Shown: positions 1,684 through 36,733 of the stretch, in pieces | How the letters are laid out: every line of letters starts with the position of its first letter | How positions within the stretch are numbered: position 1 is the first letter of the stretch | The notes under the pieces: model-generated | Databases searched by the model: none | The model's input: only the letters and a program-made list of their open reading frames with translations | Told to the model about the DNA's origin: nothing | Source: a virus | IMG/VR virus record: IMGVR_UViG_3300026200_000139 | Location: 1-37,659 of that record | Reading direction: 5' to 3' (one strand) | DNA length: 37,659 nucleotides | Position numbers and translations under genes: made by a program

Positions 1684-2340
1684 GTGAAATTTTTTATTGA
1701 TACAGCTAATATAGACAAAATTTTAGAACTAATTCCTACCGGTATGGTAGATGGAGTAACTACTAATCCTTCGCTTATATATAAGAATGGCGATGATATG
1801 GCTAAAACTATTAAGGGCATTTGTAATATACAGAATGGGCCTGTTAGTGCTGAAGTAACAGCAATAGATCATGCTCATATGGTTCAAGAAGGGCAATATC
1901 TAGCAAGTTTGGCAGACAATGTTGTTGTTAAAGTTCCATTAACAGTTGATGGCTTAATTGCTTGTAAGACGTTAAGACATTTAGGTATTGAAGTAAACGT
2001 TACATTATGTTTTAGTGTAGCCCAAGCCTTGTTAGCCGCAAAGGCTGGAGCAACTTATATCTCACCCTTTGTCGGACGCTTAGATGATATTGGGGAAGAT
2101 GGTATGAATCTTATTGCTGATATTGTTAAAATGTATTGTGTACAAGGATTTAAAACTGAAGTGTTAGTAGCAAGTGTTAGAAGTGTAAAACATGTCGAAC
2201 TAGCGGCTGTACTAGGTGCTCAAGTAGTAACTATACCGCCAGACGTTGTCTATAAGATGTATGAACACATATTAACTAAAAAAGGATTAGATAGCTTTAT
2301 GGCAGACTGGGCAAGTACAGGGCAAACTATTTTGAAGTAG
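1684..2340 (+). CDS. talC: Transaldolase (TalC/fructose-6-phosphate aldolase type)
   Basis: The 218-residue protein has the full length of the short TalC-type transaldolases. Motifs are FFIDTAN (residues 3-9), DGVTTNPSL, the Schiff-base Lys in VVVKVP, NVTLCFS, AGATYISPFVGRLDD and the late VLVASVRS. The enzyme moves a dihydroxyacetone unit in the non-oxidative pentose phosphate pathway. TalC is a common auxiliary gene of marine T4-like phages and fits a role in making ribose-5-phosphate and NADPH for nucleotides, alongside the Nrd genes here. The start is GTG with AAGGAG upstream. The last 14 bases overlap the convergent gene at 2327. Confidence 0.95.
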   Translation: MKFFIDTANIDKILELIPTGMVDGVTTNPSLIYKNGDDMAKTIKGICNIQNGPVSAEVTAIDHAHMVQEGQYLASLADNVVVKVPLTVDGLIACKTLRHLGIEVNVTLCFSVAQALLAAKAGATYISPFVGRLDDIGEDGMNLIADIVKMYCVQGFKTEVLVASVRSVKHVELAAVLGAQVVTIPPDVVYKMYEHILTKKGLDSFMADWASTGQTILK

Positions 2341-6281: not shown

Positions 6282-7487
6282 TTAGAGAAAAGCCTTTCTA
6301 TGTGACTTTGTCTCTACTTTAACTAAAGCATCTACTAAATTGTCCATCATAGCATCTGTATGATGCGGAGTTGGAGCAAACCGTAAACGTTCAGTACCTA
6401 CCTCTACTGTAGGATAGTTAATAGCCTGACAATAAATTCCAAAATCATTGATTAAGGCATCGCTCATTGCTTTACAGCGTTTTGCGTCTCCTACGAAGAC
6501 CGGTACTATATGTGTTTCATTTTCAAAAATTTGTAAACCATTCGCTCTTAATAGGTCCTTTAAATGACTAGCACGTTCCTGATGTTGTACTCGTAGTTGA
6601 TTGTTGTCCTGCAAATATTTTACACTTGCTAAAGCACCAGCACAAGTGACTGGTGATAAAGAAGTAGTAAAAATAAAACCTGAGGCGACCGAACGGATAG
6701 CGTCTAAGACAACTGCCTTCCCTGCTATATATCCACCCTGTACACCAAAGGCTTTACCTAACGTACCATTTAATATATCAACTCTGTCCTGTGATCCTTG
6801 CTTTGCTGACCAACCAGCACCTGTTTCACCATACAGGCCAACGGCGTGGACTTCATCAAGATATGTAACGGCATTATATTTTTCAGCTAAGTTGAGAATG
6901 TCATCTAATTTACTGACATATCCATCCATGCTATACACAGACTCAAAAACAACACAAGGTGTTCCTTTGACGTCTTTCAGTATACTTTCTAACTGCTCTA
7001 GATCATTGTGCTTAAAAATATGTTTCTTAGCACCACTGTTTCTGATTCCTTCAATTAATGAAGCGTGATTTTTACTATCACTTACAAATTCAATGTCGGG
7101 AATGATTCGTTTAAGAGCAATCAATGTCCATTCGTTGGCAACATAAGCTGAAGTATAAAGCAGAGCTGACTCTTTGCTATGCAGAGAAGCTAACTCATGC
7201 TCTAATGCAACATGATAATGAGATGTTCCAGCAATATTTCGTGTGCCACCTGCACCCGCACCTGTCTGGTTAAGGGCAGTTTTCATGGCATCTAAAACAA
7301 CTGGATGTTGTCCCATACCTAGGTAATCATTTGAACACCAATTTACAATATCCTTAATATTATATTTGCCATACCATATGGCGTTAGGATATTGTCCTCT
7401 GGTACGGAGAATATCGTTAAAGACACGGTAATTGCCGTTATCTTTAAGTTCTTGGATCTTCTCCTGAAATGGTGTTAGGTCTATCAT
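6282..7487 (-). CDS. hemA: 5-aminolevulinate synthase (ALAS)
   Basis: The 401-residue protein is full length for ALAS, which condenses glycine and succinyl-CoA to 5-aminolevulinate, the first step of heme synthesis in Alphaproteobacteria. Seen motifs are [36 protein letters not shown] with Asp211 and His214, the PLP-binding Lys245 in GTLGKAFG, and [20 protein letters not shown] near the C-terminus. These separate ALAS from other alpha-oxoamine synthases. The start codon is only a few bases from an ATAAATA late-promoter box and has no SD. It overlaps the upstream gene by 44 bases. A phage copy with HemF elsewhere in the window implies an effect on host heme supply. Confidence 0.95.
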
Positions 7488-11571: not shown

Positions 11572-11838
11572 ATGAAAAGAACCACTAGATCTATACTCGA
11601 AGAACTAAACAGTATTCACCGTACGACTGATAACGAAGCATTAATACAGTCAACAGGGAATAACTTAATTGAAAGTTCGATTAATTTATTAAACAGAATA
11701 ACTGATAGTTATGACGCAGATACAGCCGCAGAATTAGAAAGACGTTTTATAAACAGTATTAGAAGTGGTGATCCTCGTAAATTTAAACGTGGCGTTGATA
11801 AAATAGTTGAAGCAAGGAAAACAAATGATTCTCAATGA
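11572..11838 (+). CDS. Small helical protein, possible capsid-internal protein
   Basis: The 88-residue protein is mostly helical and charged. It starts MKRTTRSILEELNS, which contains an ILE|E site resembling the T4 prohead protease rule (Leu/Ile-x-Glu) close to the N-terminus. The SD AGGAAA lies before the ATG. It overlaps the nucleotidyltransferase gene by 14 bases, so the two are coupled. No known domain is visible. The capsid-internal idea rests only on the shared N-terminal pattern of neighbouring genes. Confidence 0.7.
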   Translation: MKRTTRSILEELNSIHRTTDNEALIQSTGNNLIESSINLLNRITDSYDADTAAELERRFINSIRSGDPRKFKRGVDKIVEARKTNDSQ

Positions 11839-27963: not shown

Positions 27964-28057
27964 AAGATTTAATGAATTAACACAAAAAAACAGAAAAGTC
28001 TTTGTTAGACTATCTGTTAAAGGTGGTGGATGTGCTGGTTTTAATTCTAATTTGTAG
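27935..28057 (+). pseudogene. Truncated IscA/ErpA-type Fe-S carrier (N-terminal fragment)
   Basis: The 40-residue ORF reads MITILANAHKRF, then VFVRLSVKGGGCAGF, which matches the N-terminal half of A-type iron-sulfur carriers, including the first conserved Cys in GGGCAGF. The stop follows five residues later. The usual C-terminal CGCG motif with the other two Cys is missing (family length is about 107). It overlaps the membrane gene at its start and ends five bases before hemF. A deletion or recombination that joined it to hemF is the likely cause. Confidence 0.7.
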
Positions 28058-28061
28058 AAAA

Positions 28062-28871
28062 ATGAAAATAGAAACAAAAAAAAAATTAACAAAAGAATGG
28101 TTTATAAAATTACAAAACATTATTTGTAATAATGTTGAACAGTTAGAAAGGGAATATGGCTCTAATATAAAATTCAAAAGAAATAAATGGAAATACGGAG
28201 AATTTAGAACCATAAAGGGTGAAGTAGTTGAAAAAGGCGGCGTTGCTTTTTCAAACGTTATAGGCAAATTTCCTAAAGAATTTGCAAAAACAATTCCGGG
28301 AACAAAAAACAATACTTATTTTTGGTCTTCAGGTGTCTCGGTAGTATTTCATCCAAAAAATCCTAAAGTTCCAGCGATGCATTTCAACACTAGATTTATT
28401 TGTACTCAAAAAAAATGGTTTGGAGGTGGTATGGACGTAACACCCTGCCTTGTAGATGTTAAAGAAAAAAAATATTTTCACAATAAATTAAAAAAAATGT
28501 GTAATCTTCACAATAAAAAATATTATTCAAAGTATAAAAAATGGTGTGATGAATATTTTTATCTACCACACAGAAAAGAGCTTCGTGGTATAGGTGGGAT
28601 CTTTTTTGACTATAAAATGGACAATTGGGAAAAAGATTTTTTATTTATTAAGGATGTAGGTATTACTTTTGCTGATTTAGTTGAGAAAATTATGAGAAAA
28701 AAAATGTATTTAAAGTGGACAAAAAAGGAAAAAGAAATTCAATTATTAAAACGAGGTAGATATGTTGAATTTAACTTGTTGTATGATCGGGGTACAAAAT
28801 TTGGGTTAAACAGTAATGGTAATCCGGAATCTATATTAATGTCTATGCCACCAACAGCACAATGGAAATAA
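28062..28871 (+). CDS. hemF: Oxygen-dependent coproporphyrinogen III oxidase
   Basis: The 269-residue protein shows the HemF order: FWSSGVSVVFHPKNPKVPAMHFNTRF, WFGGGMDVTPC, KKWCDEYFYLPHR, RGIGGIFFDY and RGRYVEFNLLYDRGTKFG, ending ESILMSMPP. It converts coproporphyrinogen III to protoporphyrinogen IX, a late step of heme synthesis. The start at 28062 gives a normal N-terminus; upstream TTG 28002 lies in the IscA fragment. SD is weak. The DNA is strongly A-rich (many AAAAAA runs), unlike nrd genes, suggesting recent capture from a host. It complements HemA elsewhere in this genome. Confidence 0.95.
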   Translation: MKIETKKKLTKEWFIKLQNIICNNVEQLEREYGSNIKFKRNKWKYGEFRTIKGEVVEKGGVAFSNVIGKFPKEFAKTIPGTKNNTYFWSSGVSVVFHPKNPKVPAMHFNTRFICTQKKWFGGGMDVTPCLVDVKEKKYFHNKLKKMCNLHNKKYYSKYKKWCDEYFYLPHRKELRGIGGIFFDYKMDNWEKDFLFIKDVGITFADLVEKIMRKKMYLKWTKKEKEIQLLKRGRYVEFNLLYDRGTKFGLNSNGNPESILMSMPPTAQWK

Positions 28872-31920: not shown

Positions 31921-32337
31921 TTAATATCTGATACTTTCATTTATTGCCCCCTTCTTTAACCGAATCGGTTTAAGTCCTGTTTCTCTGTTTAGAAATTTAT
32001 AATCAATTTTTACTACATTAAAATCTTGTTTAATCTTCTCTGCTATTTTGTAAGGATCGAAATCAGCACACGAATATACGTCTAGTTGCATTAAAGCTGG
32101 TGACGGTTCATCCCATACATGCATAGCAATATGTGAAGTTTCTATAACAGCAATTCCTGTTATTCCTCTGTTACCAGGTTCATTACAATATGCAACATAT
32201 GGTCCCATCATAATTCGCATATTAATAGATATTATAAAGTCTTTCAACCATTGTGTAAGGACAGTTACGTCATTCGGAGGGTTACTGACTTCTGCTCGAA
32301 TAATTAAATGTTTGTGGATTAATAGATTATTCTCCAT
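31921..32337 (-). CDS. speD: S-adenosylmethionine decarboxylase (SpeD type)
   Basis: The 138-residue protein has AVIETSHIAMHVWDEPSPAL, where the Ser-His pair matches the self-cleavage site that makes the pyruvoyl cofactor, and LDVYSCADFD matches the conserved 'vDvftCG' region with Cys. The enzyme supplies the aminopropyl donor for spermidine. SpeD is frequent in marine T4-like phages. The SD AGGA lies five bases from the ATG. The Ser is preceded by Thr rather than directly by Glu, a small departure from the usual ESH. Confidence 0.88.
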   Translation of the reverse strand: MENNLLIHKHLIIRAEVSNPPNDVTVLTQWLKDFIISINMRIMMGPYVAYCNEPGNRGITGIAVIETSHIAMHVWDEPSPALMQLDVYSCADFDPYKIAEKIKQDFNVVKIDYKFLNRETGLKPIRLKKGAINESIRY

Positions 32338-32432: not shown

Positions 32433-32498
32433 ATGGATATAATAGCAGTACCAAGCCAACAGGAGGCTCAAAATGAAGAGCCTGCGAGTATGGTGTAA
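32433..32498 (+). CDS. Tiny ORF, possible leader peptide
   Basis: The 21-residue ORF (MDIIAVPSQQEAQNEEPASMV) has GGAG nine bases upstream; an in-frame ATG at 32412 has no SD. It overlaps the next gene's start by 26 bases, so it could couple translation. Its reality is uncertain. Confidence 0.35.
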   Translation: MDIIAVPSQQEAQNEEPASMV

Positions 32499-32634
32499 AG
32501 GAAAATTGAACAAAGTGAAACCTTTAGTTCCCTGGATGTTTAAGGCTTATATACTTTGGAGTATAATAGCTGATGTTACTCTTCTGGCAGGAATTATATA
32601 TCTTGCAATCTACGGCGTACCAATTTTAAACTAA
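32473..32634 (+). CDS. Small single-pass membrane protein
   Basis: The 53-residue ORF has a basic N-terminus (MKSLRVWCKGKLNKVKP) and one membrane segment at about residues 24-47 (ILWSIIADVTLLAGIIYLAI). The SD AGGAGG is strong. It is likely real. Basic N-terminus and one hydrophobic segment fit a small inner-membrane protein; function unknown. Confidence 0.6.
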   Translation: MKSLRVWCKGKLNKVKPLVPWMFKAYILWSIIADVTLLAGIIYLAIYGVPILN

Positions 32635-32670
32635 AAAGAGCCAAACAAAGTTTGACCCAATCTTAGTAAT

Positions 32671-32748
32671 TTATATTTCTGCACAAGCATAGCAGTTGAT
32701 TTCTAAGCCAACTGATACTTCTGCGATTTGTGGTTTATTCCATTTCAT
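32671..32748 (-). CDS. PqqA-like peptide
   Basis: The 25-residue ORF begins MKWNKPQIAEVSVG and continues LEINCYACAEI. It closely follows the alphaproteobacterial PqqA form (I recall MKWAAP...EICVGMEVTSYESAEI in Methylorubrum). It shares MKW, P6, E10, V13, G14, E16, Y20, A23, E24 and I25. Glu16 and Tyr20 are at the exact spacing of the pair that PqqE cross-links to build pyrroloquinoline quinone. The SD GGAG is six bases from the ATG. No other pqq gene is in the window, so it would depend on host PqqB-E. The two Cys (19, 22) are unusual. Alternatives are a decoy or another modified peptide. Confidence 0.7.
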   Translation of the reverse strand: MKWNKPQIAEVSVGLEINCYACAEI

Positions 32749-32783
32749 CGCTATCTCCAAAATTGATTGTTAATATAATGTGC

Positions 32784-32804
32784 TAGTACAAATTAAATGT
32801 ACTA
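32784..32804. repeat. 7-bp inverted repeat upstream of the PqqA-like gene
   Basis: TAGTACA (32784-32790) and TGTACTA (32798-32804) are perfect inverted copies around AATTAAA. It lies 36 bases upstream of the PqqA-like start and could be an operator or leader hairpin. Confidence 0.4.
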
Positions 32805-32848
32805 ATAATATTTAACATCTTAACAAAACTCTTTGAATATACCGGTTA

Positions 32849-32878
32849 TTGACCTTACTATTAATATGTGTTATAAAT
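32849..32878 (+). promoter_or_regulatory. Overlapping sigma70 and late promoters for the tmRNA
   Basis: TTGACC (32849-32854), 17 bases, TATAAA (32872-32877). The same TATAAATA is a T4-type late box (32872-32879). The tmRNA could thus be made both early and late. Confidence 0.65.
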
Positions 32879-32880
32879 AA

Positions 32881-33236
<356 letters not shown>

Positions 33237-33255
33237 CTTTTTTTAAAAAAAATGC

Positions 33256-33284
33256 TTGACACAACTTCTTTGTTGTTGTATAAT
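33256..33284 (+). promoter_or_regulatory. Perfect consensus sigma70 promoter
   Basis: TTGACA (33256-33261), 17 bases, TATAAT (33279-33284), all exact. It reads into the 33325 gene. Confidence 0.9.
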
Positions 33285-33324: not shown

Positions 33325-33918
33325 ATGGATACTAACAAAGGTAAGCAGTATAGAATCTTAAACGAAATACTATTCCAATATCTACCAGATTTTTTTCCAA
33401 CTAAGGCTAATAAAAAAAATGCCTTAGCCTATCCTAATGCATATAATGTAGAACACTTAGTAGAACTTGCAATGGCAAATATAGGTGGATATAAATGGGT
33501 TGATGCAATTGGATATGACTTTGATGATGAGGATAAGTCAGATGCTAAAACTTGTACACTACGTAAACATGATGCACAATTTACTCTTAATAAAATAGAA
33601 CACAAGATTGGAAGTTTAAGAATTGTAGTCTACAATGAGATAACTGATAGCCTAGATTATTTTTATGTTACTAAAGTTGGTAGAGAAAATCGACTTGAAA
33701 AAGGATACCTAGCAAAAGATAGATTACAAGAACGTATGCGTTCAAGATATAATATAGGACGTGATGACTATTGCAGTTTTGAAAATTTTAGATGTGATAG
33801 CTTTAAAGAACTAGCAACTATGACAGACAAGAAAATGGAAAAGAAAAATCCAAAACTGAAATACTTACTATCAAAATCAGCCATGTTTGCAACACATTTC
33901 GATGAGCAACTCGTATAG
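33325..33918 (+). CDS. Early protein, possibly a PD-(D/E)XK nuclease
   Basis: The 197-residue protein has a helical start and then VDAIGYDFDDEDKSDAKTCT followed by strands IGSLRIVVYNEIT. The Asp ... Asp-x-Lys spacing recalls the restriction-type nuclease core, but the match is short. A perfect sigma70 promoter and SD GAGG point to strong early expression. No named family is recognised. A host-DNA-attacking nuclease is possible; that is inference. Confidence 0.65.
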   Translation: MDTNKGKQYRILNEILFQYLPDFFPTKANKKNALAYPNAYNVEHLVELAMANIGGYKWVDAIGYDFDDEDKSDAKTCTLRKHDAQFTLNKIEHKIGSLRIVVYNEITDSLDYFYVTKVGRENRLEKGYLAKDRLQERMRSRYNIGRDDYCSFENFRCDSFKELATMTDKKMEKKNPKLKYLLSKSAMFATHFDEQLV

Positions 33919-35923: not shown

Positions 35924-36733
35924 ATGCGAAGACCAAATAAGACTGTAATAGCATTTTTTATATTCATTCACTTAGGAGCACTTTTAGCCTTTATCCCTAG
36001 TACTTTCTGTTGGAGTGCAGTAGCCTTAATGATCTTTATGCATTGGCTAACAGCTTCAGTTGGAATATGTTTAGGGTTTCATAGATACTTAACACACCGA
36101 GCAGTAATACTTCCAAAATGGTTAGATTATATTATTATAACTATTGGAACATTGGCTTGTCAAAATGGTCCAATTAATTGGGTAGCTCATCATAGAATGC
36201 ATCATAGAGGATCAGATACTTTAATGGATCCACATAATGCTAGTGAAGGCTTTTGGTGGTCACACATAGGGTGGATGTGCTATACTCAACATAAATTTGA
36301 TCATCCTGCGAGAATAACTAAATTTGCTAGAGACATAAGTGGTAACCGTTATTATCAATTTTTAGAAAAACAATTTATATCATTACAAATTGGATTAGCA
36401 ATTCTGTTTTATCTACTTGGTGGAGTATCTTGGGTAGTATGGGGAATATTTGTTCGCTTAGTATTAGTTTACCATTCTACTTGGTTTGTTAATAGTGCTT
36501 GTCATAAATGGGGATATAGAAACTTTGAAATAAAAGGTGATTTATCCACATGTTGTTGGTGGAGTGCAATATTAAGTTATGGCGAAGGTTGGCATAATAA
36601 TCATCATGCAGATTCAAAACGTGCTAATAACAGAGTTAAAGCATTTGAAATTGATCCTACCTTTATTGTTATTAAAATACTTGAAAAATTTGGTTGTTTG
36701 AAATTGGCGAAACGAAGGTTGACTTCTATCTAA
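35924..36733 (+). CDS. Membrane fatty-acid desaturase (delta-9/SCD type)
   Basis: The 269-residue protein has three His boxes: HRYLTH (residues 53-58), HHRMHH (89-94) and EGWHNNHH near residue 216, all in the acyl-CoA desaturase-type order. Four hydrophobic segments surround them. It introduces a double bond in acyl chains, changing membrane fluidity. A phage copy suggests remodelling of host or virion-associated lipids. It follows the hydrolase gene by three bases and is probably in the same late operon. Confidence 0.93.
   Translation: MRRPNKTVIAFFIFIHLGALLAFIPSTFCWSAVALMIFMHWLTASVGICLGFHRYLTHRAVILPKWLDYIIITIGTLACQNGPINWVAHHRMHHRGSDTLMDPHNASEGFWWSHIGWMCYTQHKFDHPARITKFARDISGNRYYQFLEKQFISLQIGLAILFYLLGGVSWVVWGIFVRLVLVYHSTWFVNSACHKWGYRNFEIKGDLSTCCWWSAILSYGEGWHNNHHADSKRANNRVKAFEIDPTFIVIKILEKFGCLKLAKRRLTSI

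Follow-up and report, generated by a model that had tools for sequence, protein, structure and literature searches.

PQQ is a redox cofactor; in many bacteria the oxidation of methanol and alcohols is driven by dehydrogenases that depend on it. Its peptide precursor, PqqA, is consumed one per PQQ, with PqqE, together with PqqD, joining a Glu and a Tyr of the peptide; the pqqA gene usually lies in a pqq operon, but this location is not required.

The presence of PqqA in a phage is already in print, having been described in 2020 for the Lake Baikal phage population VP_266 in the part of PMC7678222 drawn on here, which also mentions that a Baikal phage population presumed to go together with VP_266 encodes radical SAM proteins. 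Methylophilaceae carry 3-12 copies of pqqA, the other pqq genes being single-copy with one exception (excerpts of PMC4109929), an arrangement that points to a role for precursor dose. In Acetobacter, PQQ rose by 29% when pqqAB was overexpressed and about eightfold with pqqABCDE (excerpts of PMC7936290), so that PqqA by itself may not be the limiting factor in every organism. A bacterial peptide family annotated as PqqA has also been found co-expressed with defence systems (PMC11118758). In the open-licence PubMed Central literature we found no report on the breadth of pqqA in phages, or on pqqA in OM43 isolates.

Here we describe a pqqA gene in the IMG/VR virus record IMGVR_UViG_3300026200_000139, the whole of which (37,659 nucleotides) is referred to below as the window, and follow it through related phages, environmental and cultured phage collections, and bacteria.

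The pqqA gene of the window and its surroundings

The gene and the features around it are, in window coordinates:

32473 to 32634, plus strand: 53-aa ORF containing a stretch judged hydrophobic by eye, left flank, convergent with pqqA
32622 to 32848, no strand: stretch missing at the matching junction of the relative G101 (blastn breakpoints), spanning pqqA, its upstream region and its terminator
32638 to 32658, minus strand: intrinsic terminator 12 nt past the pqqA stop, with a 9-bp stem, a 3-nt loop and a T run
32671 to 32748, minus strand: pqqA, 25-codon PqqA precursor peptide gene (Glu16, Tyr20, Cys19, Cys22), above the cut-offs of TIGR02107 and PF08042
32755 to 32758, minus strand: Shine-Dalgarno sequence GGAG, 6 nt before the pqqA ATG, read from the sequence
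32836 to 32864, minus strand: weak sigma-70-like promoter candidate upstream of pqqA
32854 to 33279, plus strand: permuted tmRNA, right flank, divergent from pqqA

The ORF (32748 to 32671, minus strand) starts with ATG, stops with TAA and encodes in 25 codons the peptide MKWNKPQIAEVSVGLEINCYACAEI, in which E16 and Y20, the pair joined by PqqE, stand three residues apart. The peptide scores 33.8 bits with TIGR02107 (E 2.1e-8, curated cut-off 20) and 27.2 bits with PF08042 (E 3.9e-6, curated cut-off 21.1); no PHROGs family was found for it. A six-frame profile search of the whole 37.7-kb record returned the ORF as its single match (31.6 bits, E 1.0e-8), and the same six-frame PqqA search of 14 control genomes returned none. 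Likewise, a degenerate PqqA DNA pattern derived from the window peptide matched the window once, at the pqqA site, and had no match in 100 dinucleotide shuffles of the window. We therefore firmly assign the ORF, on its sequence, to the PqqA family as a genuine phage pqqA.

Chance resemblance to PqqA was considered and is ruled out by the profile scores and by a control search of IMG/VR with the PqqA pattern mis-framed by one base, which gave 6 matches, none of them a PqqA. The first-pass annotation had described a 25-codon gene with a good Shine-Dalgarno sequence, lying on the minus strand between a membrane gene and the tmRNA and resembling alphaproteobacterial PqqA over its full length, Glu16 and Tyr20 included, and had named a PqqA profile search among its checks. 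All of this is borne out: the ORF is in that place, GGAG precedes its ATG by 6 nt, the 53-aa ORF and the permuted tmRNA flank it, and both profile scores are significant.

The terminator is well defined, a 43-nt piece folding at -14.2 kcal/mol (z -4.7). A promoter search around pqqA returned 5 sigma-70-like sites against 4.2 expected from shuffles, none of them above chance. A perfect TTGACA-17-TATAAT promoter lies at 33256-33284 (plus strand), overlapping the 3' end of the tmRNA ahead of the gene at 33325-33918.

Head and baseplate family genes in the window, and tail genes in the relative G050, mark this as a genuine phage genome, in which pqqA, a metabolic gene of cellular type, qualifies as an auxiliary metabolic gene. 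Its host was probably an alphaproteobacterium, as we infer from the type of PqqA, the permuted tmRNA and a 5-aminolevulinate synthase gene (6282-7487, minus strand; TIGR01821, 569 bits), a gene already reported from a phage in the part of PMC11480375 consulted. The window further encodes an oxygen-dependent coproporphyrinogen oxidase, HemF (28002-28871, plus strand; NF003727, 338 bits, cut-off 297), for which tblastn found no match in the relatives G050 and G001, an S-adenosylmethionine decarboxylase (31921-32337, minus strand), a fructose-6-phosphate aldolase/transaldolase (1684-2340, plus strand) and a DesA-like desaturase that scores far below its model cut-off (35924-36733, plus strand). 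G050, the window's closest relative, has a gene of the tryptophan halogenase family (phrog_2928, E 2.7e-98; L446, 18149-19717).

Distribution and conservation among phages

G050 (75 kb; aligned DNA 92-99% identical to the window) carries an identical PqqA peptide and Shine-Dalgarno sequence. The PqqA protein of G001 is 88% identical to that of the window, and pqqA with its Shine-Dalgarno sequence shares 86.8% DNA identity over 91 bp; the other aligned pieces of these two genomes are 66-78% identical, except for the tmRNA (82% over 74 bp). Their pqqA genes differ by 5.5 synonymous changes in 14.7 sites and 3.5 non-synonymous changes in 60.3 sites. Leaving the identical G050 copy aside, the best of 222 phage copies has 88% DNA identity to the window pqqA, and the best of 119 bacterial ORFs reaches 82% protein and 77% DNA identity.

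The gene is not present throughout the lineage, nor always in the same place. In G101 the tmRNA comes immediately after the same 53-aa ORF, with no pqqA in between: the blastn breakpoints are 14 nt apart there and 227 nt apart in the window, so that about 213 bp are missing. G102 has the same junction lacking pqqA, and since the two assemblies are 99.99% identical and represent one phage, the empty tmRNA site rests on one relative. Of the marks of a moron-like stand-alone gene, the pqqA region thus shows a site that is empty in one relative and a terminator, its promoter candidates being no commoner than by chance. In G001 and G116-G118 pqqA occupies another site, upstream of a homologue of the window gene at 11572-11838; G117 and G118 are again one phage (99.9% identical), so this second site rests on three relatives (G001, G116 and G118). 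Across the wider lineage, 43 of 80 loci were searched, on contigs at least 15 kb long, many of them fragments; pqqA was found in 4 of the 43, two of the four being the same phage. It was further found in 1 of 80 speD loci. The gene is thus accessory, and the 4/43 presence rules out that it is a fixed gene of this lineage.

Beyond these relatives, the degenerate in-frame PqqA pattern matched at least 120 stretches in IMG/VR, 118 of 120 being ATG-started ORFs of 23-27 aa with a PqqA core, and the narrow motif GLEINCYACAE at least 119. With four in-frame IMG/VR scans pooled and two non-PqqA loci dropped, at least 329 loci had a PqqA core. TIGR02107 exceeded its cut-off in 47 of 49 records taken from the first scan and in all 20 records picked from later scans; the two that fell short are the ORFs already judged not to be PqqA. 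Judged by these scans, phage pqqA is far more widespread than reported in the literature covered (open-licence PubMed Central). Grouping the loci by three, two or one common neighbour ORF families within 4 kb gave 58, 35 or 4 groups, respectively; as the grouping shifts with the threshold, we claim no number of lineages. Among six families of pqqA neighbours compared with PHROGs, four corresponded to portal, major head, exonuclease or endolysin, one to a family of unknown function and one to none.

The first two patterns, degenerate and narrow, fix E16 and Y20, which makes conservation at these residues uninformative, and the scans were therefore repeated with the N-terminal half alone fixed. 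Among the matches listed, both residues were then found in 240 of 240 peptides (120/120 Methylophilales-like and 120/120 alphaproteobacterial-type); the alphaproteobacterial-type scan demanded an ATGTGG start, so the window's own peptide lies outside it. At residues left free by the first pattern, pN/pS was 0.34 for each type (20 and 98 loci); the shifted frames gave 1.8 and 1.0 for one type and 1.9 and 1.4 for the other. Two further expectations of the first-pass annotation hold up here: nucleotide changes bear the mark of coding constraint (0.34 in frame against 1.0-1.9 in shifted frames), and those related phages that have pqqA keep its frame, Shine-Dalgarno sequence, E16 and Y20, as do wider relatives.

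Of the 118 pqqA ORFs that the first scan gave, 111 are preceded by a 4-base Shine-Dalgarno core, which occurs in 5.0% of random 13-nt pieces from the same loci, a stricter count that we prefer to a 3-base test passed by 118/118 ORFs but also by 22% of random pieces. Terminator-like structures within 60 nt past the stop accompany 48 of 224 pqqA ORFs, that of the window included, against 1 of 224 mononucleotide shuffles. These signals bear on whether pqqA might be a functionless scrap of host DNA carried along by chance, a reading that its patchy presence and its two different sites within one lineage would favour. Yet the substitution pattern contradicts it, Shine-Dalgarno cores are far above the chance level and terminators frequent, pqqA is present in distinct phage groups, and the window copy is nearer to other phage copies than to the bacterial ones; we regard such passive carriage as extremely improbable.

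No match to the window peptide was obtained by tblastn in the 50,697 records of an isolate phage collection, nor to any other of the four alphaproteobacterial-type peptides used, and a Methylorubrum-type peptide gave weak matches only (E 8), to Melnitz. A query of the Methylophilales type matched 12 records. Nine belong to phages of Methylophilales hosts, representing six phages (P19250A, MEP301, Venkman, MEP401, MEP402 and Melnitz, the last with four strains), and the other three are one Caudoviricetes genome from a spring and two contigs of the Acinetobacter 'phage' MD-2021a. Translation gave an intact pqqA ORF in P19250A, MEP301, Venkman, MEP402, Melnitz-1 and the spring genome; MEP401 is represented by its tblastn match only. 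One MD-2021a contig (CAKLQF020000010.1) was set aside as likely bacterial DNA, its match being surrounded by ppk, pqqB, pqqC, pqqD and a gene for a radical SAM protein; this host-like verdict covers one of the two contigs. None of the matched isolate records carries an annotation as PqqA. In two records the annotation has a hypothetical ORF, probably mis-called, on the other strand across an intact pqqA (Melnitz-1, MZ577095.1, 74848-74943, minus strand; MW202481.1, 2067-2195, minus strand).

According to the part of PMC10580990 (2023) used here, Venkman, MEP301 and Melnitz were the only earlier OM43 isolates, forming three distinct groups, to which MEP401 and MEP402 were added; combined with our tblastn matches, this means that pqqA is present in each of the five OM43 phages listed in that paper; P19250A, a Methylophilaceae phage, has it too. 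A term search of the main texts of PMC10580990, PMC8024684 (MEP301) and PMC9004378 (Melnitz) found no mention of phage pqqA.

Bacterial counterparts and the probable fate of the peptide

The ending GLEIN[C/S/T]YACAE was found in 114 stretches of bacterial contigs, some of which may be phage DNA in MAGs; the 80 titles listed among them comprised 76 alphaproteobacterial entries, two Proteobacteria, one Verrucomicrobia and one Flavobacteriaceae. All 25 bacterial genomes chosen for this peptide type contained pqqA, in 1-5 copies, and 22 had PqqE over the cut-off; the three others, whose genomes are possibly incomplete, include G075, with a peptide identical to phage ones. The background for the class was pqqA in 54 of 289 sampled genomes. 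Six alphaproteobacterial genomes of 1.2-2.5 Mb (G079, G080, G081, G088, G089 and G090) have 4-5 pqqA matches each, and at the locus L149 three such matches lie near one another.

This survey does not sustain one claim of the first-pass annotation, that Cys19 and Cys22 set the peptide apart from classical PqqA, because both are found in the PqqA of marine alphaproteobacterial genomes. Phage peptides of the window type have C22 in 20/20 cases and either C (11) or S (9) at position 19, and in the ATGTGG-starting subset both cysteines, for which no selection was made, occur in 120/120 peptides among the matches listed. This would suit a peptide that a host radical SAM enzyme turns into some modified product other than PQQ, with Cys19 and Cys22 involved. 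However, the bacteria that share the pattern mostly hold PqqE as well (22/25), and the Methylophilales-like phage peptides have Met at position 22 in 101/120 of the matches listed (C in 16/120), so the cysteines are not needed in phage PqqA generally. We consider a different product unlikely.

PqqE over the cut-off was found in none of the 48 phage records with pqqA, including the window record, where the PqqE search gave no match and hence no sign of a pqq operon around pqqA; many of these records are fragments, which makes the missing PqqE weak evidence. Matches below the cut-off occur in two large phage records (G030, 22 bits; G040, 17 bits). Copies of pqqA outside the pqq cluster are known in bacteria too. 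A PQQ-dependent alcohol dehydrogenase is present in one of the 48 records and has no model match in the window record. In this one record, G038 (72 kb), pqqA is joined by genes for a methanol dehydrogenase of the PQQ-dependent kind (608 bits) and for the alpha subunit of a formate dehydrogenase (885 bits). The two dehydrogenase genes of G038, a phage according to IMG/VR, are adjacent (L437, 5989-7863 and 7943-10783) and suggest a phage-borne C1 oxidation set.

A peptide supplied without its enzyme could also act as a decoy that occupies host PqqD or PqqE and shuts down PQQ synthesis or another PqqD-dependent pathway, in keeping with the retention of the whole PqqA profile region and with the lack of PqqE over the cut-off alongside it in the 48 records. 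For such a decoy the reacting residues would be dispensable, yet E16 and Y20 stand in all 240 unselected relatives among the matches listed, and the pairing of pqqA with a methanol dehydrogenase in G038 also speaks against it. We think a decoy very unlikely.

Among the readings considered, a precursor fed into the host PQQ pathway would fit the sequences best. Host PqqD and PqqE would bind the phage PqqA and link its Glu16 with its Tyr20, after which the other PQQ enzymes of the host would turn the cross-linked peptide into PQQ. PqqA supplied by the phage might in this way sustain PQQ, and with it the PQQ-dependent dehydrogenases of the host, once host gene expression drops. Because one PqqA is spent per PQQ while the enzymes are reusable, a 78-bp gene alone could keep PQQ supplied, and for a phage that wants more PQQ the greatest gain per base would come from pqqA alone, which fits the stand-alone gene seen here. 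Processing of the peptide, a PQQ-making host and a raised PQQ or energy yield are likely, though inferred, steps. We judge it probable that the window gene encodes a genuine PqqA used by host PqqD and PqqE as a consumable substrate, sustaining PQQ during infection.

A broader proposal, whose chances we would put at about even, is that PqqA represents a widespread class of substrate-only auxiliary genes largely missed by gene calling. Many phage lineages infecting PQQ-dependent bacteria would have acquired it repeatedly, generally with none of the enzymes, the reason being that energy conservation in infection is limited by the supply of PQQ. It may be near universal in Methylophilales phages, and in phages of marine alphaproteobacteria it may move from one genome site to another, and from phage to phage, as a unit no longer than about 200 bp. 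If this is true, viruses commonly steer the PQQ pathway via its substrate and not an enzyme, with a gene of 23-27 aa found in hundreds of phage sequences. The cultured carriers (MEP301, MEP401/402, Venkman, Melnitz and P19250A) make the idea directly testable, and pqqA exemplifies the real metabolic genes that can be overlooked when annotation leaves out very short ORFs.

Comparison with known systems

The closest cellular counterpart is the pqqA with a GLEIN[CS]YACAE ending found in marine alphaproteobacteria (such as MED-G10/HIMB59, Rhodospirillaceae single cells and MarineAlpha MAGs), which shares with the phage gene its length, W3, P6, G14, E16 and Y20, Cys22 and the Shine-Dalgarno sequence, but differs in that 22 of 25 such genomes also hold PqqE. 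Among viruses, contigs from reservoir sediment (excerpts of PMC13188868) resemble the window in that a viral pqqA was named as an auxiliary metabolic gene; there it is a list entry without sequence, context or conservation, and viral pqqD and pqqE are listed too.

VP_266, the Lake Baikal Methylophilaceae phage population, is like the window in having a phage PqqA, there in a phage of PQQ-using bacteria and proposed to support PQQ supply, whereas it is a freshwater methylotroph phage that also carries methanol dehydrogenase (part of PMC7678222). The window pqqA, in contrast, has the alphaproteobacterial-type ending and is a stand-alone unit in a record with no model match to a PQQ-dependent alcohol dehydrogenase. 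The extra pqqA copies of Methylophilaceae, which are not accompanied by matching numbers of enzyme genes, offer the cellular parallel of the phage gene, with the difference that they lie on the host chromosome (excerpts of PMC4109929).
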